This document shows positions 6,647 through 17,500 of a DNA stretch of 23,479 nucleotides, in pieces; positions within the stretch are counted from its first letter, which is position 1; each line of letters begins with the position of its first letter. The DNA lies in IMG/VR virus record IMGVR_UViG_3300030056_000006, positions 1 through 23,479 of that record, one strand, 5' to 3'. This DNA comes from a virus. Below the pieces are notes generated by a model. The model was not told the origin of the DNA and searched no databases. It worked only from the letters and a program-made list of their open reading frames with translations. Position numbers and translations under genes: made by a program.

Positions 6647-6846
6647 TTGGTCTCGGTCAGAGCCTTGAGCATCGAATCGAACTCAGCGACCTCGGCACGA
6701 TAGTCGGCGATGAACTCCGGGATGTGCTTGGCGACGTGGACGATGGCGACGATGGCAGCGGAGGCAGGCAGCAACGTGTAGCGAAGGAAAGGCCACACAC
6801 GCGGGAACCGGGTGAGGAAGCGGCCGAAGGAATTGAGGTTGCTCAT
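6643..6846 (-). CDS. 67-residue single-helix membrane protein in the lysis cluster
   Basis: A basic N-terminus (FGRFLTRFPRVWPFLRY), one hydrophobic helix at about residues 24-40 (YTLLPASAAIVAIVHVAKH), and a charged helical tail (DYRAEVAEFDSMLKALTETK). ATG at 6846 overlaps the lysozyme stop (ATGA), and its own stop overlaps the protease start, so the three are translated as a coupled set. The N-in, single-helix, helical-tail plan could fit a small inner-membrane spanin, an antiholin or a membrane tether for the protease. No cysteine-lipid partner gene is nested in it. Not recognised by family. Confidence 0.6.
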   Translation of the reverse strand: MSNLNSFGRFLTRFPRVWPFLRYTLLPASAAIVAIVHVAKHIPEFIADYRAEVAEFDSMLKALTETK

Positions 6847-7292
6847 TTGCTACTCCAGAGTTTGATCTCGGCACCACGACGATTCGTGAGGCCGTCATTG
6901 ATTCGGAGAACGCCATTGACGGTCTCCTTGTTCCACCGCGCGAGCTGCACGGGGACGGACGCGTAGTCGCCTGCATTGAGCAAGCGAAGCAGCGTGGAAG
7001 TCAGGAACTTGGTCTCGCCCTCGTTGAACACAAAGGACACGAGAGCGATCCACTGCGGCTCCGTAAGAGCGACGTGGACATTCTTGGATACGCAGTTGGT
7101 GGCCCACGCGAGATCGCGTAGGAGGAGCGCACGCGAGGTCTCAGGGGTGATGCGGAGACCAGGGGTAACGTCGAGGCCGGTGTGGCCCACGCCGATGGTC
7201 AGGGTGCCGTTGGTGTCACGATATGCGACAAGCCTTTCCCCCTCGACTTTGACCATGAAGTCGAGGAGGCGGGTGGTGATCTGATAGGTTAT
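6843..7292 (-). CDS. GH24 phage lysozyme (endolysin), apparently with an AUA start
   Basis: A muramidase of the T4/P22 lysozyme type that cuts the glycan chain of peptidoglycan at lysis. With the start at 7292 it has 149 residues, and the triad E17-8-D26-5-T32 has exact family spacing within VEGERLVAYRDTNGTLTIG, then VGHTG. There is no signal or SAR anchor, so a holin must release it. The first in-frame ATG (7256) would cut off the helix ITTRLLDF just before the catalytic Glu and has no ribosome site. Upstream, GGAG-5 nt-ATA at 7292-7290 lies in the same context (GGAGTACCCAT) as the ATG start at 972. No in-frame ATG, GTG or TTG exists between the upstream stop and 7256. The true start is therefore either ATA, or an ATG altered by mutation or sequencing error. 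Confidence 0.82.
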   Translation of the reverse strand: MTYQITTRLLDFMVKVEGERLVAYRDTNGTLTIGVGHTGLDVTPGLRITPETSRALLLRDLAWATNCVSKNVHVALTEPQWIALVSFVFNEGETKFLTSTLLRLLNAGDYASVPVQLARWNKETVNGVLRINDGLTNRRGAEIKLWSSK

Positions 7293-7304
7293 GGGTACTC
7301 CAGG
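7286..7304 (-). promoter_or_regulatory. Ribosome site that places the lysozyme start at an ATA codon
   Basis: The minus strand reads CTGGAGTACCCATAACC. GGAG sits 5 nt before ATA, and the stretch GGAGTACCCAT is identical to the ribosome site and start of the small membrane protein at 972, where the codon is ATG. The internal ATG at 7256 has CCTCCTCGACTTC before it, which cannot pair with 16S rRNA. Confidence 0.55.
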
Positions 7305-7319
7305 GGGAAGGAATGACTT

Positions 7320-7655
7320 ATGCGCTTTCGACTGTTCGCTGTTGCTGCTGTGTGCGCTTTATGTGCGCCGGGAATCGTGTCGGCGCGCGGCTACACTGTT
7401 TACGGGGCCGGAGCCGCAAGCTGTGGCACCTGGACAACTGACCGAGCGCACCATCTCGACGCAGATCTCCTGGGATGGGTCGCCGGTTTCGTCACGGCTT
7501 CCGGTTACTACGATGTGGATGGCGCGCTCAAGCAGGAAGACACCAACGCGCTAGACGCCTATGTAGACGCGTACTGCGCGGCTCACCCGCTTGATCGGGT
7601 CGAAATAGCTACGCAGCACCTCGTTGACGATCTTATGGACAAACCAACTCAGTAG
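7320..7655 (+). CDS. Small secreted protein, accessory gene on plus strand (111 aa)
   Basis: A Sec signal peptide is clear (MRFRLF, a hydrophobic core with VAAVCALCAPG, then cleavage near SARG at 21-24). The mature part is about 88 residues with Cys35 and Cys86, probably a disulfide, and a FVTASGYYD...AYVDAYCAAHPLD pattern. This type recurs in small periplasmic proteins of proteobacteria and vaguely resembles Rap1a/Tai-type immunity proteins; I cannot assign it. ATG at 7320 has AAGGA about 7 nt upstream. It points against the late operon, so it is likely a 'moron' expressed on its own in the lysogen. Its last codons and TAG stop lie inside a remnant of terL. Confidence 0.6.
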   Translation: MRFRLFAVAAVCALCAPGIVSARGYTVYGAGAASCGTWTTDRAHHLDADLLGWVAGFVTASGYYDVDGALKQEDTNALDAYVDAYCAAHPLDRVEIATQHLVDDLMDKPTQ

Positions 7656-7690
7656 TTGTCGCAGAAGTTTGGCCCGGAGGGTCGATGAGG
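7648..7690 (-). pseudogene. Diverged copy of the terL 3' end (remnant)
   Basis: On the minus strand this reads HRPSGPNFCDNY-stop, against HRPAAPNFFDNY-stop at the real terL C-terminus (8309-8268). The DNA matches at 34 of 43 bases, and 21 of the last 22. The two copies flank the tail-anchored accessory gene as direct repeats about 620 nt apart. This is best read as a leftover from recombination between related phages at the end of terL. Confidence 0.8.
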
Positions 7691-7698
7691 GTAAGCGA

Positions 7699-8250
7699 AT
7701 GCAGAACAACGATCTAAACAACACGGCACGGGATACGATAGAGAAGTTCCGTCGCGACCTGCACGGGGTCGTGTTCCGTGGAGAGCCTGTGGCAGCAAAT
7801 ATAGGCGGGGTAGTCGGCCAGAACAGCAGCGCTGTGAGTGTCCTAATCGAGCAACACAGAGACGTGCTAGACCAGCTCGCTGCGAAGTGCGTAGAGCAAT
7901 ATCGCTGGGTCAATCAATACGCTCTCATTCCGAGCTGGATACATACAAGAGAGTGGGAGCTGTATACGAAGTCACAGCTCCAAGCGCTGCTTCAGTTCTG
8001 CGATCAAAGGCTGCATGCTCTGCTGCCTGCTTACGAGTCCAACGGGCTTAAGCACGACGGCTATCTGGACATTCTGCGGAGGCACCATGAGGACGTCGAG
8101 ACGAACGTGGTTCTTATGCTAAGAACGGCGCGCGCAGAACAGAAACGTGCGACAGCGAGGATGGGCCTCAGCTTGTTGGAGAGGGTCTTTTGGCTCGCGG
8201 TGGGCGCGGTGATTAGTGCGGTTGTTCTATCTATTCGCCCACCGCATTAG
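7699..8250 (+). CDS. Tail-anchored membrane protein, accessory gene on plus strand (183 aa)
   Basis: Residues 1-155 are polar and probably helical (IEKFRRDLHG, QHRDVLDQLAAKCVEQYRW, YLDILRRHHEDVETN, LRTARAEQKRATARM). A single C-terminal hydrophobic helix, about 160-179 (LERVFWLAVGAVISAVVLSI), would anchor the domain in the inner membrane facing the cytoplasm. ATG at 7699 follows GAGG at 8 nt; the in-frame start at 7624 would read through the terL remnant. The DNA looks less GC-rich than its neighbours. It runs against terL, ends 17 nt from the terL stop with no terminator, and is flanked by copies of the terL tail, so it was probably acquired as a cassette. Superinfection exclusion or defence is a reasonable guess; no family recognised. 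Confidence 0.6.
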   Translation: MQNNDLNNTARDTIEKFRRDLHGVVFRGEPVAANIGGVVGQNSSAVSVLIEQHRDVLDQLAAKCVEQYRWVNQYALIPSWIHTREWELYTKSQLQALLQFCDQRLHALLPAYESNGLKHDGYLDILRRHHEDVETNVVLMLRTARAEQKRATARMGLSLLERVFWLAVGAVISAVVLSIRPPH

Positions 8251-8267
8251 CTATCCTTTGCGGCCGC

Positions 8268-9926
8268 TCAGTAGTTGTCGAAGAAGTTCGGCGCTGCCGG
8301 CCGATGACCGAAGACGCTCTCCGCGAACTTCGCGTACTCGATCTCCATCAGCTCCTCCATCCGCTTGTCTTCCTCGCGGGAGATGTCGCGGTTGAGGTAC
8401 TCGCTCCAGTACGCGACGGCCATTGCGAGCGCATCGAGTCTGTCGTCGTGCCGTAGGGCGCCACGGTCGCGGGTGATCCGCGTGAGCTGGTGGAACAGTT
8501 GGAACTTCGGTTCGCACTTCTGATCCGCACGCATGAGCGCGGCATCCACGATCAGTCGGTGCTGGTTGAGCACAGGCTCCAGCGTGTCGATGATGCGGCG
8601 TTCCTTCTGACCGACACTGCGAGTCTCCTCGACAGCGCACGGGTAGATGCGGCGGAGCACAGGCTCCAGCAGCTTGATGAACATGCCGTCGCCGAAGTTC
8701 GACTCGACCAGGATCATCTTGACCTTCTCGGCACGGGCTACGTGCGCGATCTGCTCAAGAGCCTCGTCGTCATAGCCGCCCTTCAAGCCCCCTGCACGAC
8801 GCAGGAAGACCATGCCGCGCAGCAGCTTGGTCACGGTGTAGCCCGTCTCGTCACCGCCGCGTCCCGAGGGATCGACGGACATGACGGAGCCGGTGTACTC
8901 CTCGACTTCCTTGGCGAGATACATCGGTCGGTGCAGGCGGTCACCAGTGAATCCCACAGCGGGGATGTCGTCGATCACCTGCTCTTTGCCAGAGGCCCAC
9001 ATGATTCGGATGGGTGCCGCTTCGCGGTCTACGTCCATCACGATCAGGTCGGATAGCTTCAGCGGATACCGCTCAGCATCGGACAGCGTGGTGTCGAGCA
9101 TGAATTGCAGCAGGAACCCGCCGCGACCATAGGACGCCTCACGGCGAAGAAGGTCATCCTCATGGAACCGGGAAGGCTCCACGGGTTGCCATGCAGACCC
9201 AGGGTTGGCCTCGAAGTGATCCGCGATGAACGGAGCGAGCCGACCGCTGTACTGGTTGAAGTGCTTGCGATCCTTCGGATACCGCGCGGGCCAGATGCGA
9301 ATCTCATAGCCACGCGAGGGGAGCTGGTTGTAAATGGACTCCTCGGTCTGAGGTGTGCCCAGGTAGACGATCTCTGCGTGAGCCAGTGGCTTCAGGATCG
9401 CGTCGAACTCTTTGATGAGTTCACCCAGCTTCTCGCGTTGAGCGACAGTGGCCGAGTTCTTCACCACTTCCACGTCATCCGCGATGATCGTGTCGGCGCG
9501 TGAGCCGGTGAGCTGGCCGGTGATACCGACAGACTTCACGGAAGGGGACTGGTCGGGTTTCGCAGGGCCGACATCGAACGCGAGGTTCGAGTTGCGCTGG
9601 TCGCCCTTGGGCTTCAGATGAGCCAGTTCGGGAATGGTCTCGATCAATCGCTTGGTGAAGATCGAGAAGGCGTCAGCGCGATCTTTGGATGCGGAGACGA
9701 CGAGTACCTTGTGTTGCGCGTCTTTCCACAGGAGCCAGCAGACATACGCTGCGGTGATCCAGGATTTCCCGATGCCTCGGAAGGCTTCGATGACGCGGCG
9801 GCGAGGGCCGTATTGCAGGTAGGCAGCGATGTCGTACTGGACAGCAGTCGGCGCCGGTAGGCCGAGCTGCTGCCAGATATGGTAGACAAAGTTACGGAAG
9901 TCCTCGAACGGATGCGGCTCGCTCAA
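8268..9926 (-). CDS. terL: Terminase large subunit, T7 gp19 type (552 aa)
   Basis: The DNA-packaging motor and end-forming nuclease. The ATPase half shows a Walker A variant at residues 48-56 (AFRGIGKSW), Walker B DTIIADDVE (145-153, with the catalytic acidic residue) and the coupling motif YLGTPQ (188-193). The nuclease half shows acidic residues in SVDPSGRG (Asp352), VESNFGDG (Glu408) and HDDRLDALAMAV (Asp494/495 and Asp498). Length is close to T7 gp19 (586). The start is TTG at 9926, with GGAG just upstream and a 4-nt overlap with the stop of the small subunit (TTGA). The downstream neighbour is a convergent accessory gene rather than the rest of the late operon. Confidence 0.95.
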   Translation of the reverse strand: MSEPHPFEDFRNFVYHIWQQLGLPAPTAVQYDIAAYLQYGPRRRVIEAFRGIGKSWITAAYVCWLLWKDAQHKVLVVSASKDRADAFSIFTKRLIETIPELAHLKPKGDQRNSNLAFDVGPAKPDQSPSVKSVGITGQLTGSRADTIIADDVEVVKNSATVAQREKLGELIKEFDAILKPLAHAEIVYLGTPQTEESIYNQLPSRGYEIRIWPARYPKDRKHFNQYSGRLAPFIADHFEANPGSAWQPVEPSRFHEDDLLRREASYGRGGFLLQFMLDTTLSDAERYPLKLSDLIVMDVDREAAPIRIMWASGKEQVIDDIPAVGFTGDRLHRPMYLAKEVEEYTGSVMSVDPSGRGGDETGYTVTKLLRGMVFLRRAGGLKGGYDDEALEQIAHVARAEKVKMILVESNFGDGMFIKLLEPVLRRIYPCAVEETRSVGQKERRIIDTLEPVLNQHRLIVDAALMRADQKCEPKFQLFHQLTRITRDRGALRHDDRLDALAMAVAYWSEYLNRDISREEDKRMEELMEIEYAKFAESVFGHRPAAPNFFDNY

Positions 9927-10162
9927 TGGCTCCGGTCAGAGCTTGCGTCGAAGGGGAACTCCTTGAGCTTGTCCGCCAGCTTGCCAGCGGGACTGCCAGG
10001 TACGATGACGGCTTCGATGCCGTTGTCTTTGACGAACTGTCGGGCGACGTTGAGGATCGCAGCGAGTCCCTTGGTGTCCGTATCCATGCTCTCGATGGTG
10101 TCGGTGAGCTTGTTGGCGATAGCGGAGTGCAGGGCTTCGAGTGCGTCCTTACTTGCTGCCAC
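9923..10162 (-). CDS. terS: Terminase small subunit, T7 gp18 type (about 79 aa)
   Basis: A small acidic-basic helical protein (SKDALEALHSAIANKLTDTI, LAAILNVARQFVKDNGIEAV, then GSPAGKLADKLKEFPF). It sits between holin and terL exactly as gene 18 does in T7 (89 aa). It would form the ring that selects phage DNA and activates TerL. There is no ATG: GTG at 10162 is my choice, GTG at 10171 is equally possible, and neither has a strong ribosome site. Translation is probably coupled to the holin gene, whose stop lies 14 nt inside. The 3' end overlaps the terL start by 4 nt. The identification rests on position, size and helical character. Confidence 0.72.
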   Translation of the reverse strand: MAASKDALEALHSAIANKLTDTIESMDTDTKGLAAILNVARQFVKDNGIEAVIVPGSPAGKLADKLKEFPFDASSDRSH

Positions 10163-10433
10163 TACCGCCACCGAGGAAGCGAGCGAACAGACTCTCCAGC
10201 GCGGTCGTCCCGAGGGACGCCAGGGCCGCAGCGAGACCCACATGGGCCGGGAAGGACAGCGTGGGGAAGATCACGACGGCCAGCGCGGCACTCATGCTGA
10301 GACCGGCCGTGGTGATGCAGCGGGCGAGGGCGATCTTCCAGTTGGAAGGGCCGCTCGAAGCAAGGGTTTTGCCGAGGCCGATGACGGCCCCGGTGATGCC
10401 CAAGGTAGCGAGTAGTTTCGTGTCGTTGTCCAT
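10149..10433 (-). CDS. Phage holin, about three membrane helices (94 aa)
   Basis: A 94-residue protein with hydrophobic segments at about 7-25 (LATLGITGAVIGLGKTL), 38-57 (CITTAGLSMSAALAVVIF) and 65-84 (VGLAAALASLGTTALESL), ending in LFARFLGGGSGSK. The pattern resembles LydA-like holins. Its place directly before terS-terL matches T7 gene 17.5. It would form the membrane lesion that lets the GH24 lysozyme reach the wall. ATG at 10433 lies 2 nt after the stop of the preceding gene and has no strong ribosome site of its own, so it is probably coupled. Confidence 0.75.
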   Translation of the reverse strand: MDNDTKLLATLGITGAVIGLGKTLASSGPSNWKIALARCITTAGLSMSAALAVVIFPTLSFPAHVGLAAALASLGTTALESLFARFLGGGSGSK

Positions 10434-10435
10434 GG

Positions 10436-10900
10436 TTACTTGTTGGTCGAGTAGGAGAGGGTGTAGTTCACGTACACCACGAAGGACGATTGGCCGTCCG
10501 AGATGGTGCAAGCCAGCACGCCGGTGATGGCGCCGACAGCGGCAGTCACGACACGGGAGATGGTTGTGGACTGTCCGTTCGGGCTGGTGATGGTCGGGGC
10601 GACGCCGTTGCTCACGGAGACGATTGACCAGGTGTAGCTGTACGAGCCGTTGCCGTTTGCACCGTAGGCCGCTGTAGCATTCGAGGTGACGTTGCCGGAA
10701 TTCGGGACACCCTGCGCGCCACCTGAAATGCTGGTGGGACTGGCAGAGCCGCTAACGGGTGTGTAGGCAGCGAACGCGAGCACCCAGGCGCCTCCCTGTC
10801 GCCTGTAGATGTTTCCGATCTTGGTCTGGATGCCGCCGGTCTTACGTGCTTGTCCTTGCACCGGATCGCGCCACCCGCCGCCGCTTCTAATCTTCAGCAT
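10436..10900 (-). CDS. Ig-like tail or receptor-binding accessory protein (154 aa)
   Basis: The first 45 residues (MLKIRSGGGWRDPVQGQARK, then IQTKIGNIYRRQGGAWVLAF) resemble the short adaptor modules seen in tail-tip proteins (xxVGGxW repeats). The rest (about 50-150) is Ser/Thr/Gly-rich with a YTWSIVSVSNG and LACTISDGQSSFVVYVNYTL pattern, typical of an Ig/PKD-like beta-sandwich. It starts 3 nt after the second fibre gene. It probably decorates or extends the fibre and may contact the host surface. Only the fold type is supported. Confidence 0.62.
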   Translation of the reverse strand: MLKIRSGGGWRDPVQGQARKTGGIQTKIGNIYRRQGGAWVLAFAAYTPVSGSASPTSISGGAQGVPNSGNVTSNATAAYGANGNGSYSYTWSIVSVSNGVAPTITSPNGQSTTISRVVTAAVGAITGVLACTISDGQSSFVVYVNYTLSYSTNK

Positions 10901-10903
10901 GGG

Positions 10904-12601
10904 TCACCAAATCCACAGGTCACCGTCTTGCGCAGCGCCGCCTGGGTCACTGCCCTGGACGAAGATGCGCGGCATGCCTACCCAACCAGCACTGTTCGCC
11001 CATAGCCTGTTCATCTGGCCTGCGAAGTACGCGTTGCCATTGTGCTGAAGGCCGCTGCCGTTGCCGTTGATGTACGCACCGCCGTTACTTTGGGTGGTCA
11101 GGCTGTTGCCTGCTACCTGACCGGCACAGTTCCAGTTCGTGACGCCTTCGTGGATCACGCGGTACGCGTTGGCACCCATCGACCAGCCGCCGACCTTCCA
11201 CTGGTTGTCGGTGTCGATACCGAAGTGGGCGCCGTACTGACCGTCGCGGAGGAAGGACATGACGGCCGCTGCGTACTGGTTGTTGTTGTTCGCGATGCAC
11301 AGCGCGGTGGCGTTGTTGTTGACGATCCCCGAGATGTTAGGAGGGCTACCGCTGGCGAGAACCGTTCCGTCTTTGGAGGTACGCACGCCGACAGGCAGAT
11401 AGCTGCCAGGGTCGAAGTTGCCCGCATGCCACACGGCCTTACCGTTGACCTTGTAGCCACCCAAGGTGTCCCACGTACCCGTGCGGGCGTCGTACACGCC
11501 ACGAACCGTATCCGTGTAGTCCGCAAGACCGAGGCCCCAATGCAAATGCACACGGCTGTTGTGGGTAGCGTAGGAGGCGCCATCGCCCGCACCTGACGCG
11601 AAGAAGCACCGACCTGTTGCCGAGGGCATATCAACGAGTCCCGAGAAGGCGGGACTTGCCAGCGGTGCCTTGGCATCAAGCGTGCCCTGTAGACCCGCGA
11701 GGTCGGAGATGCCGATCACCACGTTGCCGGTGCGGCCGGCGACAGTAGTGACGACGGTCTGGTTGTCGATGCGATCCCAGGAGTCGCCGTCGTAAACGAG
11801 CATGTCGCCTACGCCGTACTTGATGGTGCTGACGGTGCCGGCAGCGGAGACGATGTAGAAGTCGCCGACCTTCGGACTGTCCGGCATTGCACCGGATGCA
11901 GCAGACCACTTGCCTCGGTAGATCAGCGCGCCGATGGCGGTGAGGCGGGCCTGCTCGGCCCAATGGAACGCCGAGAAGTTACCAGGCGAGACCTGGACGT
12001 TCACCGGAGCGTTCGCGTATTGCAGGGCGAGGCCCTGCGCGGTTTCCGCAGCGCCCTTCGAGGACAACGCGGATGCCGCAGAGAAGCCGGCATTGTCGGA
12101 GTTGTTCCTGGAGGTCGTCGCGCTGCTGGCCGCAGCCACCGCAGACGCGTCAGCCGCAGCAGCCTTCGTGGTCGCCGTGGTTGCGCTTGTAGCAGCGTCA
12201 GTGGCCTTCGAGGTCGCGTTGGAAGCCGAGGTGCCCGCAGTGACCGCAGAGGCAGCAGCGGCATCCTTAGCGACAACGGAAGCGGCGCGGGCTGTGTCGG
12301 AGTCAGTAGCGGACTTCAGCGACGCCGATGCGAAGGCCGAAGCCTGCGACGAGGACGCCTGTGCTTGCGCGGCGGCACCCGTCAAGTTCTCCGTAAGGGA
12401 CGTGACGGTCTTCTGTAGGGCCGGGAAGGTCGGCAGGGTGACGATGGCACCCGTACCGTCTTCCATATCCACCGTGCCGGTCTGCTTGGTGAGCAAGTCG
12501 CGCAGTGCGTTCTTGTATCCGTTCCACTTGTCGATCAGAGCGGAGATGCGAGCGGCTAGAGTCGAGTTCGAGATCGAGCCGGGGTTGTCGTTTGCGGAGA
12601 T
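10904..12601 (-). CDS. Second tail fibre protein (about 565 aa), non-AUG start
   Basis: Residues about 50-160 are an Ala/Ser/Thr-rich heptad-like region (ASSSQASAFASASLKS and similar), as in lambda-type side tail fibres. This is followed by a GTVSTIKYGVGDMLVYDG domain and a repetitive beta-rich shaft (VNGKAVWHAGNFDPGSY, AYRVIHEGVTNWN). The tip region is Gly/Asn-rich and ends GSDPGGAAQDGDLWIW. The reading frame extends up to a stop at 12655 with a natural-looking N-terminus (VTISANDNPGSISNSTLAAR, then ISALIDKWNG) but no ATG, GTG or TTG before a TTG at 12496. AGG-5 nt-ATC at 12601 is the best-placed start. The GTA at 12607 overlaps the stop of fibre 1. It likely attaches to fibre 1 and determines host range. 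Confidence 0.75.
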   Translation of the reverse strand: MSANDNPGSISNSTLAARISALIDKWNGYKNALRDLLTKQTGTVDMEDGTGAIVTLPTFPALQKTVTSLTENLTGAAAQAQASSSQASAFASASLKSATDSDTARAASVVAKDAAAASAVTAGTSASNATSKATDAATSATTATTKAAAADASAVAAASSATTSRNNSDNAGFSAASALSSKGAAETAQGLALQYANAPVNVQVSPGNFSAFHWAEQARLTAIGALIYRGKWSAASGAMPDSPKVGDFYIVSAAGTVSTIKYGVGDMLVYDGDSWDRIDNQTVVTTVAGRTGNVVIGISDLAGLQGTLDAKAPLASPAFSGLVDMPSATGRCFFASGAGDGASYATHNSRVHLHWGLGLADYTDTVRGVYDARTGTWDTLGGYKVNGKAVWHAGNFDPGSYLPVGVRTSKDGTVLASGSPPNISGIVNNNATALCIANNNNQYAAAVMSFLRDGQYGAHFGIDTDNQWKVGGWSMGANAYRVIHEGVTNWNCAGQVAGNSLTTQSNGGAYINGNGSGLQHNGNAYFAGQMNRLWANSAGWVGMPRIFVQGSDPGGAAQDGDLWIW

Positions 12602-12611
12602 AGTTACCTCA
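12597..12611 (-). promoter_or_regulatory. Ribosome site lacking a standard start codon, second fibre gene
   Basis: The minus strand reads TGAGGTAACTATCTCC. The stop TAA of fibre 1 is embedded in an AGGTAA that can act as a Shine-Dalgarno, followed 5 nt later by ATC in the frame of fibre 2. No ATG, GTG or TTG is available in this frame between the stop at 12655 and the TTG at 12496. Confidence 0.45.
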
Positions 12612-14541
12612 GCCCGAGGGCGTAGATTGAGATGGCGGTGACGTGGAAGTAGTCAGGGCGAATCTGCCCGGTGCCGTCGATGCGAACGCGGTAGCTCACG
12701 GCGCCTGTGGCTGCACCGTCCAGGGCCATCATTGAGTCGTAGGCGGTGGAGGAGACGTTCATGTAGTAGGCGTGTTGCTTCATCACTACCCACGTCGAAC
12801 CGACCAGCTTCTCCAGAATGATGAGTCCTGTGCAGGGGTTGGAGCCGGGGTTGTGGATCTCACACTCAACGTGCAGCACGGGCACTTGAGCTTCCCCAAG
12901 GAGCACAGGGGTCGTCAGGGTGATCTGTGCGCCGACACCGCCGACGTTCGCCGCGATGTCGCCAGTCCACGACGTGTAGGTGGACTTCTGCAAGTTGCCG
13001 ATCATGTTCTGAGCGGTGATCTGTCCAGCGAACTTGGCGTTGCCCGAACGATCGACAGAGAAGACTGCGTTGTTCCAGTTCTTCGCCCCGGCACCGATCC
13101 ACATCGGATAGGCATCGCCAGGGTTGTTCGTCATCTCGCAGCGGAACTCCAGCGGGTTGATGATCGCGCCGTTGCCGTCGAGCTGGAACGTGCGGAACGT
13201 ACCGCCGTTCACCGTGCCCAAGTTGGCCGTGATGGCTGACAGGGAGTTCGCAGTGATCTTGTTGGCTGTCACTGAGCCATCGACGATGAGCTGACCCTGG
13301 ATGCCCACGGTGCTCACGCCGCCGACCGTGCCGACAACGAACGGATACTTGAGTTGCGCCACGCCACCCGTAGTGGTGTAGGTCGGGGAGACCATGGCGA
13401 AGCGGTCAGCCATGACCGTGAAGGTCGAGCCAGTCTTGCTGTCGATGCCCAGGCCGATGCCGGCGATCACAGGGATGCCGTCGATCTTTCCGCCATTCAT
13501 CTTGACCGACCAGTTCGCCTGCCATTCCGGGTTTGCACCAGGATCAGGATTGCCAACCACGAGGGCCTCGAAGCGGCTCTGTAGGTTCGCGAAGGAACCG
13601 TTGGAGAACGCCTCGACCTGGGTGGTCGCGATGGCCTGCGCGTAGTCCTTGGTGGCGTAGGAGGTCTGCATGGTCTGCGAGATGGCCTTGTCGGCCTTGT
13701 CGAAGTCCGCAGCGACCTTGGTGATCGCGGTGGATCGTGCCTCGGTCTCATTGGCAATCGCCTGCTTCACGTCGGTGATCTGCGCGATGCTGTCGTTGAT
13801 GGCCGCGCTGAGCTGCGTGGCGGACGTGGTGCGTGCCTCGGTCTCCGTGGCGATGGCCTGGTTGACCTGGATGAACTGCGCAGCGGAGTCGTCGAACTTG
13901 GCGAACAGCTCGGTGATCTGCGTGGCGACGGACGAGTGATCGTCCACCAGCGCGGTCAGGCTGGTCTCTGCGATAGCGATGCGTCCTTCGAGCTTCCGGC
14001 GTTCGTCGAACGTCTGGTCGCTGCGGAGGAGTTCTTCCATCAGCGTCTCGGCCGTGTTGTCGATGTCATCGAGCCGGGTCACCAGGATGCCCATGATGGG
14101 CGACTGCATGATCGCGTCGATGATCTGCTGGATCGGCAGGGAAGGCTGGTCGCCTTGACCGGGCCAACCAGAGCCGCCGCCAGGAAGGCCGCCAGCACCG
14201 TAGGTGCCGAAGTCGAGCTGCTCCTGGATGATGTAGAGGAGCTGTGTACTGTTGAGGTTCAAGTCACGCGCTGGTAGCTGCGTGCCGTCTTCGACGACGA
14301 CGAGGTTCCTGTCGCGCGGAGTGAACCTGCGGATGGTCACGAGGATTCCCGAGGGAACCTCGGCGGCCAGTTGAATTGTGGTGGGGCCAGTCCAGGTGAA
14401 GGACTGCTCCACAGCATCCCCCACATCCCCTGCGAACACCCGGATGTCTTCGGAGTGCAGGTAGGGGAAGGGGATGGTGTACGTGACCGCTGACTCCGCG
14501 AGGTACATCACGAAGGAGTAGCCACGAGCCAGTGGGTTCAT
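12604..14541 (-). CDS. Tail fibre: T7 gp17-type N-terminus with gpJ-like central region (645 aa)
   Basis: Residues 1-112 match the T7 gp17 tail-attachment domain in pattern (YTIPFPYLHSEDIRVF, then VTIRRFTPRDRNLVVVEDG and QLPARDLNLNSTQLLYIIQEQ). A Gly/Pro hinge follows (115-135), then a helical coiled coil (about 155-315) with repeats of the form A-x-ETEARxTxxTxL. Residues about 362-450 (FTVMADRFAM, YPFVVGTVGGVSTVGIQGQL, IVDGSVTANKITANSLSA) resemble the DUF1983 region of lambda gpJ. The C-terminus (510-645) is a beta-rich domain ending ALGLR. ATG at 14541 has GGAG 6 nt upstream; a start at 14595 would overlap the internal protein gene and lies outside the domain. It attaches to the tail tube and carries the second fibre or tip proteins. 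Confidence 0.88.
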   Translation of the reverse strand: MNPLARGYSFVMYLAESAVTYTIPFPYLHSEDIRVFAGDVGDAVEQSFTWTGPTTIQLAAEVPSGILVTIRRFTPRDRNLVVVEDGTQLPARDLNLNSTQLLYIIQEQLDFGTYGAGGLPGGGSGWPGQGDQPSLPIQQIIDAIMQSPIMGILVTRLDDIDNTAETLMEELLRSDQTFDERRKLEGRIAIAETSLTALVDDHSSVATQITELFAKFDDSAAQFIQVNQAIATETEARTTSATQLSAAINDSIAQITDVKQAIANETEARSTAITKVAADFDKADKAISQTMQTSYATKDYAQAIATTQVEAFSNGSFANLQSRFEALVVGNPDPGANPEWQANWSVKMNGGKIDGIPVIAGIGLGIDSKTGSTFTVMADRFAMVSPTYTTTGGVAQLKYPFVVGTVGGVSTVGIQGQLIVDGSVTANKITANSLSAITANLGTVNGGTFRTFQLDGNGAIINPLEFRCEMTNNPGDAYPMWIGAGAKNWNNAVFSVDRSGNAKFAGQITAQNMIGNLQKSTYTSWTGDIAANVGGVGAQITLTTPVLLGEAQVPVLHVECEIHNPGSNPCTGLIILEKLVGSTWVVMKQHAYYMNVSSTAYDSMMALDGAATGAVSYRVRIDGTGQIRPDYFHVTAISIYALGLR

Positions 14542-14555
14542 GTGTCTCCAGAGAG

Positions 14556-17500
14556 TTAGGGAGTGTCGCCCTTCGGGAGCTGTGAAGCTGCCCACGAGAG
14601 ACCGTTACGAACGCCAGTGACGTTCTGGAACCACAGGAGCGACATCGCATCCTTGGCTTGCTTCTGTGTGACCTGTGCATGTGGATCGAGTGCTGTCACC
14701 GCGAGCTTCGGAAGACCCCACAGGGCACGTCCGGTTGCCAGCGAGGGGATGCCCTGTACACCGGAGTCCAGGCCCGTGGAGCGGCCATAGGCGAAGACAG
14801 GAGTGTCATCACCACCGAGGGCCTTCTTGAGACCCATGTCGTGTGCAACGGTGTCCACCATGAACGGGAGGATCGAGGAGTAGCTGGACTGCTGGAACGC
14901 CTGCTTGCCAATCGTATCCATCGTCATCAGCTTCTCCCGCTTCTCCGGGTCGCCGATGGTGTTGACGTAGTTACGAGCGGCCATGCCGATACCTGCGAAC
15001 AGCGTGGAACCCATCCACATCTGCGCCGTCTGCCAGTCACGCATGTGCAGCCCGTGCAAGAGCACCGAGGTGTACGAGTTGGTCTGGAAGGTACGGAACT
15101 GAGTGAAGATGCGCCCGGTCGCTGAGTGCATGAGCTGGATGGTGTCACCAACACCGCCTTCGCCCAGGTAGCGTTTCGCATTGCGATGGACGAACAGTGC
15201 CAGGAGACGCTTGTCATCCGGCGACCACTTGTCCCAGGACTTTGCTATGTCCTTGACGCCCGTCATGCCCTTGAGGTTTCCAAAGAGACGAGCTTGGTCA
15301 GCAGCGTCCAGGCCACCTGCACGCAGGCGGTTCAGTGCGCTCTTGTGGATCGACGCACGGTTGGCGAGGTCGATGATGTAGCTGGTGATGCCGGTGCCAG
15401 CGAGGCCCTGGTTGAACTGCACCATAGGTGCAATACCGGAGACCACGGACATCGCACGCTGTGCGTACTGCTCACCCTGGTCGAGCTTGTTCAGCGCCTT
15501 GCCTACCGCCTTCTCGTTGTTCCACACGGACTCGCCCACGGAGTCCAGGCGCAGATGCGGCTGGTTGCGGATGAAGTCGGTGCCGAAGCCGGATAGCTCG
15601 GAGATGAAGCGCGCCTCGTCAGTGGAGAACTTGCCGGTACGCATGTTGCGCACCATGTCCACCGCCGCAGGGGCCGCCTTCAGTGCGTTGCGGAAACCCA
15701 CAGCGCCCAGCGTACCGCCCACACTCTCCAGCATCGTGAAGCCCACCTGGCCCATGGAGGTCAGGAAGTTCCACCCACGAGCCAAGCGGGAACCGCGAGT
15801 CCACGCGGAGTGCGGTGCGTCGGACGTGGACTTGCCGAGGATCGAGTTGAACGTGATGTCGAGTGCGCGGGACAGATCGCTGTCGCCAGCCTGCTTGCTT
15901 TGAGCCAGGAGGAACGCCTTGTACTTGTCCAGCTCCGCTTGCGTGCCGATGTTGGCGTGCTTCTTCAGCGCTGCCCAGCCGGACATCTCGCGGACGTACT
16001 CGGGCACCAGCTTGTCCACGTTGTTCTCCAGGAGATCAGCGAGGTTCACCTTGTGCTCATTGCCGAGGTCGTCTTTCAGCGTTGCGCCGAAGGACTCGTC
16101 CATGTCGATGCGGGACTTCGCACGGGAGTGCATGGCCTTCTTGGCTTCGTCCTTCTCCAGCTTGCCCACCAGTGCGTCGATGCGTTGCACATCCACACCA
16201 GCTTCCGTCAGTAGATCGCGGACACTGCCGGCGTCTGCACGGTTCAGCGTGCCATGTAGGTCACCTGCGCCGCCCATCGCCTTGTCATATCCACGCTTGA
16301 GCCATGCGTTGCTGACTTCGTGCAGGAGGTCTTCGTTGACCTTCTCGCCGTCCGGCAGGTTCTTCGCCCACTCGCTGCGCATCGCTGGCTTGACCAAGTT
16401 GTCCCGCAGGTTCTCGAAGGAGAGGCCCTTGGTCGCATTGAGGTCGGTGTAGCCCTTCGCGGAGAAGATGCGGGGCAGGTAACCCTTGGTCGGCAGCTCC
16501 TTCTCGAAGCCGGGGACGCCGGCCGCGCGCAGCTCGTCATTCATTGTCTTGAAGGCAGCAGCGGCGTGCTCGGCAGTCGCTTGGACTTCGGGCGACATGT
16601 CCTGCGCTACGCCACGGATGTGATAGCCGACTGACTCGTTGAATTGAGCACGGGCCACGTCACCCTTGACGCCGCTGGTGTTGGAGAACTTCGACCACTC
16701 ACCCTCGACGCCCTTGCGGTACGCCGCGTGGATCGTCTGATCCATCAGCTCTGATTCTTCGGAAGCAGTGAACTTGGTTGCCGCGCTGCGATCCGTGTTG
16801 CCTACGCTGTCCCGCAGGAGCTTGCTGCCCTCGTTACGAACAACGGAGGACTCGCTGCCACCCAGGCGGCCCGCAAGGTCACGGCGGATGGTCATGTTCG
16901 CCATCCACTTCGGGAGCCACTTGGGCGCACCCTTGCCGCTGCCAGTGAATGCAGCGCGGTTGGTGTTCGCGTAGGACTCGTCGAGGATGGTCTGCTGCCA
17001 CTCGGGCGTGCCCACTGCGGGGCCGTCCAGGGTGCTCACTACAGAGCCATCGACTCGCGCTGCTCCCATGCTGTCATTGCCGGTACGCACGGGGGCTGTG
17101 GTGTCACGCACGAGCTTGTTGGTTCCATGCGCCAGATCGGCCAGCTCACCTGCGCGGAACCCGAAGGCGCCGCCCGTGAGGAACCCAAAGGCTCCTGCGG
17201 TGACCAGGTGGGACGTGTCGATCTCGGGGTCGTACTGTGAAGCGAGGCCCTCGGTGCCCATGTTGATACCTGCGCCGACGACGCCGGCACGCACAGCGTT
17301 CGCCAAGCGTCCCGCGTTCGCGGAGTAGCCAGCGCCACCCGAGAGGGCACCGATGGCGAACATGGAGGGATCGAGGGCGCCTGCTGCGAGGTTGGACAGG
17401 AGACCGGAGCGAGCCGAATCTTCCTGCGCCATCTTGTTCTGGATTGCGAATCCCTTGAGGAGTTCAGCGTGTGCGGGAGACGTTGCACGCTCCAGCAGTT

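Follow-up and report, generated by a model that had tools for sequence, protein, structure and literature searches.

The window analysed here, a stretch of 23,479 nt, is a temperate T7-like phage of Rhodanobacter. The interval between its gene for the terminase large subunit (terL) and its endolysin gene is quite probably a slot for short antisense cassettes, in which the stacking of two cargo genes left a scar, whose contents are exchanged with host chromosomes, and whose cargo would protect the lysogen and be shut off by antisense transcription in lytic growth. The late-gene stretch lies on the minus strand and includes terS, holin and terL, followed by the lysozyme gene, as recognised by Pfam and PHROG profiles. 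The terL product matches PHROG 38, terminase large subunit (5.2e-114), and Pfam Terminase-T7_RNaseH-like (4.5e-38); it runs over 552 aa without interruption, and the nuclease and ATPase domains of the T7 terminase are both present. A near-identical prophage, L004, was found in Rhodanobacter sp. MP7CTX1, with 98.7% identity to the window over positions 6912-15926; beyond the lysozyme gene, the two are unaligned or share 81-82% nucleotide identity. At the ends of L004, an apparent integrase and a single-subunit RNA polymerase were recognised by eye. Pseudomonas phage LUZ100 has a T7-like genome with temperate features (PMC10134795). Its terL is related to that of the window (57.7% identity); among the matches listed, no other characterised T7-like phage showing temperate features comes closer. 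Unlike the window, LUZ100 has only small same-strand hypothetical genes 3′ of terL, with no lysozyme gene, no antisense cargo and no slot. The features of the slot in the window are as follows:

6843..7292, minus strand: endolysin (phage lysozyme), left border of the slot (Pfam Phage_lysozyme, 5.9e-35; PHROG endolysin)
7320..7655, plus strand: acc1, 111 aa, the presumably older cargo gene (homologues at the same site; model pLDDT 79)
7648..7690, minus strand: outer copy, a putative relic of a terL 3′ end comprising the last 13 codons and the stop (repeat and profile)
7699..8250, plus strand: acc2, 183 aa, predicted to be all-helical with a C-terminal membrane anchor, the presumably younger cargo gene (hydrophobic 19-mer; model pLDDT 85)
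8267..8309, minus strand: inner copy, the 3′ end of the functional terL (direct repeat)
8268..9926, minus strand: terL, T7-type terminase large subunit, right border of the slot (PHROG 38, Pfam)

The endolysin frame probably starts at an ATA (7290-7292) behind a GGAG motif. Around this apparent start (window positions 7256-7292), nearly all of the 24 aligned alleles have no ATG, GTG or TTG; in the 24 loci, ATA, ATC or GTA stands a few bases past a GGAG-like motif, and the DNA upstream is variable cargo. Non-canonical initiation of the endolysin is possible.

Searches for terL yielded 66 loci, and a survey of the interval covered the 23 distinct alleles in which the lysozyme gene is visible too. 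Its length ranges from 315 to 3698 bp, its genes are in all 23 alleles antisense to the late genes terL and lysozyme, and at least eight unrelated cargo families occupy it, with a high turnover. The cargo found in the relatives, antisense in every case, is listed below with the basis of each assignment:

Acc1-like secreted proteins: L011, L026, L031 (similarity)
Tail-anchored helical proteins of the acc2 kind: L002, L010, L021, L032, L034 (similarity)
Small Cys/His proteins: L012, L024, L025, L030, L041, L042 (similarity)
HEPN_AbiU2: L029 (profile, 1.9e-12), and L027 by similarity to that of L029
FRG protein matching the PADLOC candidate PDC-S15: L029 (FRG, 1.5e-19; PDC-S15, 1.9e-36)
DUF3800-like protein: L033 (profile, below the Pfam cut-off)
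YD-shell protein: L016 (profile, below the cut-off)
GH19/XVIPCD protein and its neighbours: L003 (profile)
Unnamed cargo families: L006, L019, L036

A weak profile match to PDC-M04A was also found among the slot cargo. Between the window and L010, L011 and L012, nucleotide identity is 87-89% towards terL and 88-94% towards lysozyme, but between these flanks only the 39-44-nt tail match aligns. Near-identical flanks around an unalignable middle indicate that cassettes are exchanged between otherwise similar phages. The suggestion of the initial annotation that the end of terL marks both a module boundary and a hotspot of gene exchange is well supported by the unrelated cargo held between similar flanks in the 23 alleles, and relatives do carry other genes at the same site. 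In L108 (genome G489), a decayed relative, terL and lysozyme lie a few bases apart, which has the look of an empty site.

The antiviral hotspots of P2 and P4 are short slots (~1-5 kb) with a fast turnover, located between conserved phage genes (PMC9122126). The slot described here is likewise, as in hotspots of the Rousset type, a small locus (0.3-3.7 kb) between two conserved genes with a high gene turnover, and some of its contents resemble defence systems. It differs in its site between terL and the endolysin gene, in belonging to temperate T7-like phages, in the constantly antisense orientation of the cargo, in the stop codon often borrowed from terL and in the presence of terL-tail scars; its candidate antiviral cargo is recognised by profile only. 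With morons, the cargo has in common the location of extra genes between conserved genes, a slightly lower GC content and absence from relatives, as at the decayed empty site. However, the search around acc1 and acc2 detected neither a consensus promoter nor a terminator, and stacking left a relic of a core gene. No earlier description of this T7-like cargo hotspot was found in the literature searched. Its identification in temperate T7-like phages supplies candidate protective families, the tail-anchored acc2 family foremost.

In L003, a Dyella silvatica prophage, the slot (~7698-11263) holds a GH19/peptidoglycan-binding/XVIPCD protein of the T4SS antibacterial effector type, accompanied by three secreted-looking neighbours, perhaps including an immunity protein. 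An MtlR-like gene is common to phage L030 (5897-6366) and the chromosomal locus L091 (9217-9684), with 70% nucleotide identity; in L030 it lies past the lysozyme gene, which suggests a second accessory site there.

Ends of terL also occur apart from phages. The search of 234 Rhodanobacteraceae genomes with terL revealed, besides intact and decayed prophages, five C-terminal fragments that reach the terL end, and a sixth (G001:C4) came from an order-wide search. Six host chromosomes carry such orphan tails of about 24-68 aa, each beside intact cargo lying antisense at the tail end:

L090: an L036-type gene, 60% identical
L091, L092 and L110: acc2-type genes
L093: AbiU2-like and acc2-type genes
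L094: a 124-aa gene

In genome G105 (L092), an acc2-type gene is followed by a decayed terL tail and then by an FRG gene, a stacking like that in the window. The cassette L110 (G001:C4) keeps both arms: its acc2-type gene is flanked by the terL tail (~90 nt) on one side and the lysozyme head (~140 nt) on the other. Between orphan and phage copies of two cargo families, third-position differences are about twice as frequent as first-position differences, which suggests that the orphan cargo stayed under constraint at the protein level. The presence of cargo in host chromosomes together with pieces of phage arms would mean that phages and hosts exchange it, and the orphan tails provide a sequence tag for finding such cassettes in bacterial genomes.

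The strongest competing explanation, which falls only a little short of being probable, is that the orphan tails are leftovers of decayed prophages that kept useful cargo, with no transfer of cassette size. Prophages of this group in G119 and G001:C3 (L097) are visibly decaying, and small remnants are the end state to be expected. However, the control, a 711-aa tail protein searched for in the same 234 genomes, was found in four intact prophages only and left no orphans, against six for the terL tail, although it is the larger gene; the cargo-terL end is evidently retained or moved much more frequently than a usual structural gene. Moreover, L110 is a small insertion, its site measuring ~2.6 kb in G001 and ~0.6 kb in the related genome G004. 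Its arms are nearer to the clade of the window (77-79% identical for terL, 88-90% for lysozyme) than to the prophage residing in the same genome (72% and 81%).

L097 (~31.4-32.7 kb of G001:C3) is a heavily decayed second prophage with terS and N-terminal terL pieces; genome G001 also carries an intact prophage and the orphan cassette. The latter (L110, 5710-7456) adjoins an XVIPCD-like gene pair recognised by eye, and phage arms and effector loci meet there. In L093 (6533-8244), a tRNA-Leu gene, a P4-type integrase recognised by eye, a 41-codon terL tail and the cargo follow one another, and this island may carry the cassette on its own.

The acc1 protein possesses a hydrophobic N-terminal segment and two conserved cysteines. 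The best PDB match of its model is YmgD (Foldseek probability 0.92). Acc1 has the two cysteines of the periplasmic proteins HdeA, HdeB and YmgD and may share with them a signal peptide and a small helical fold, but the E-value is 0.27, and no match to the acc1 family was found in Pfam, PHROGs or PADLOC, including any defence family. By its predicted fold, acc1 appears to be a secreted HdeA/YmgD-like protein, which is a likeness of fold and not a proof of membership. Besides the three relatives with acc1-like cargo at the same site, homologues exist in 17 other Rhodanobacteraceae genomes. Five of these host homologues had readable ends, none of them with a terL tail, so acc1 is an ordinary host family as well.

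The hydrophobic 19-mer of acc2 (residues 159-177) lies 6 residues from the C-terminus, and the model consists of helix throughout. A fold search against the PDB returned only generic helical bundles, and the family search in Pfam, PHROGs and PADLOC gave nothing named and no defence family. The family is very divergent, with 9-19% identity to acc2, and scans of viral contigs with single proteins returned only near-identical phages. The six hits of the family model (A1) in the 234 genomes each lie next to the 3′ end of a terL; as this model was built partly from the orphans, the result speaks to the absence of the family elsewhere and is not independent.

A scan covering one promoter type found no sigma-70-like promoter, and no intrinsic terminator was found, in positions 6800-8500. 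The cargo is probably expressed in the lysogen, where acc2 at the inner membrane and acc1 in the periplasm would protect the host and the prophage. The predicted placement in these two compartments would fit exclusion of incoming phages. In lytic growth, late transcription from terL to lysozyme would run antisense through the cargo and shut it off. Such a layout would be a simple, testable way for a prophage to keep a defence gene that leaves its own lytic growth unharmed. In the Tha/Ith system of S. aureus prophages, an antisense noncontiguous operon has strands active in opposite states of the life cycle (Rostol et al. 2024, PMC11087260); Tha is a HEPN protein, and the defence gene is quiet during lytic growth (PMC11087260). 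The likeness lies in opposite-strand prophage genes serving opposite states, the reciprocal regulation being presumed in our case; unlike in Tha/Ith, it is the cargo itself that lies antisense within the late region.

It is rather unlikely that the cargo serves bacterial competition or stress tolerance rather than protection against phages. The T4SS-effector-like XVIPCD/GH19 protein of L003 and the YD-shell protein of L016 would suit such a role, as would the resemblance of the acc1 fold to acid-stress proteins of the HdeA type. Against this, HEPN_AbiU2, the FRG protein matching PDC-S15 and the weak PDC-M04A match occupy the same slot in other phages.

The history of the slot in the window can be read from the 43-nt direct repeat at positions 7648-7690 and 8267-8309, which, as first described, is identical at 34/43 positions and at 21/22 towards the terL stop. 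No other direct repeat of the region is as long or as good (41 nt without gaps, 83%), and when 43-mers taken every 50 nt across the window were compared with the remainder, only this repeat scored above 31. Both copies close alike on the minus strand, the outer one with HRPSGPNFCDNY and terL with HRPAAPNFFDNY, each followed by a stop. In a 13-residue profile built from 24 terL tails, the outer copy scores 23.2, and a background made by resampling the whole 18.5 kb of interval DNA 60 times with a Markov model peaked at 7.8. Chance similarity is ruled out by the 34/43 match, the 43-mer scan and the profile score against its background. The similarity follows the codons of terL. The tail-anchored plus-strand gene does sit between the copies (ATG at 7699, stop at 8250). 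It is less GC-rich, as was claimed, with 0.554 compared with 0.611 in terL and 0.615 in the whole window, but the difference is modest and not marked.

The terL gene ends with GAC AAC TAC and then TGA or TAG, and in 23 of 23 alleles an antisense TAG lies within 6 nt of this end. In 15 of the 23, this TAG is the stop codon of the neighbouring cargo gene, and at least four unrelated families are involved (acc1-like, Cys/His, AbiU2, acc2-like in L032, DUF3800-like and other proteins). If the stop of terL is TGA, the cargo ends with CAG TAG or CAA TAG, so its last glutamine is derived from terL as well. The last codon and stop of acc1, CAG TAG (TAG at 7653-7655), are inside the outer copy, and the acc1 homologues in L011, L026 and L031 have the same ending, but in a real terL. 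The stop of acc1 inside the outer copy, in the standard geometry, is the strongest argument that this copy is what remains (the last 13 codons) of a terL formerly adjoining acc1, and for the later arrival of acc2. The spacer between acc1 and acc2 is essentially the terL relic, and the acc2 ATG is 9 nt past it. It seems that acc2 and a fresh terL end were added after acc1: acc2 with a complete tailed terL would have joined upstream of the shortened old tail at a later joint, stacking two cargo genes with the old tail as the spacer between them. The type of recombination and the order of events are read solely from the stop-codon geometry, as the joint on the acc2 side (~7690) has no known donor.

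The outer tail was consequently not brought in with acc2, as the initial annotation had it, but was the original 3′ neighbour of acc1, judging by the CAG TAG geometry. Nor could it be assigned to the terL of another subgroup: when all tails were compared, no donor stood out, and the best value (33/42) was a tie with three alleles of the window's own clade. The acc1-type relatives without acc2 (L011, L026, L031) have a single terL tail, and none of the relatives scanned carries two tails without a second accessory gene. Scars of this kind date and order the acquisition of cargo.

A local duplication, in which the phage copied its own terL end once and acc2 was inserted between the copies later with no second phage involved, is improbable. 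The outer copy indeed matches no tail better than that of the window's own terL (33/42), but the stop geometry of acc1 needs a terL abutting acc1 before acc2, and one exchange suffices with no extra duplication. Furthermore, the nine differences between the copies include conservative, terL-like codon changes (S as in L016 and L002), and tail relics of other lengths adjoin cargo in hosts. Although the repeat stands at either edge of the cassette and is one of the best-conserved stretches of the slot, it is very improbable that it acts as a functional DNA element required at both edges (a recombinase site, a bidirectional terminator or a packaging signal), as other single- and multi-gene cargo has no second copy, no terminator-like site was found at the repeat, the similarity tracks terL codons and the relics in hosts differ in length. 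A target-site duplication or recombinase site was rejected, since the copies have diverged in a codon-like manner and other cargo has no flanking repeats; the recombinase site or target-site duplication at both ends that distinguishes integron-type or transposon cassettes was not found.

Returning to cargo exchange at the terL end, a tentative generalisation, on the doubtful side, is that this end serves as a universal landing end for cargo. It would give the stop codon and, with the lysozyme head, form homology arms that let T7-like phages take up protective genes from reservoirs in chromosomes and shed them again, and the antisense placement would silence the cargo once the late genes are transcribed.

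Among other stacked loci, no relic tails were found in L003, L016, L024, L091 and L093. The spacer that separates the FRG gene from the AbiU2 gene in L029 was not singled out in an unrestricted profile scan (score 1.4). It reads IPRLEFYDN, near to the tail SSPRLNFYDNY of L036 and L093 (20/30 nt), and none of 400 random spacers matched as well. The FRG stop falls within this tail-like spacer, and L029 is a probable second case of a terL-tail scar between stacked cargo genes.
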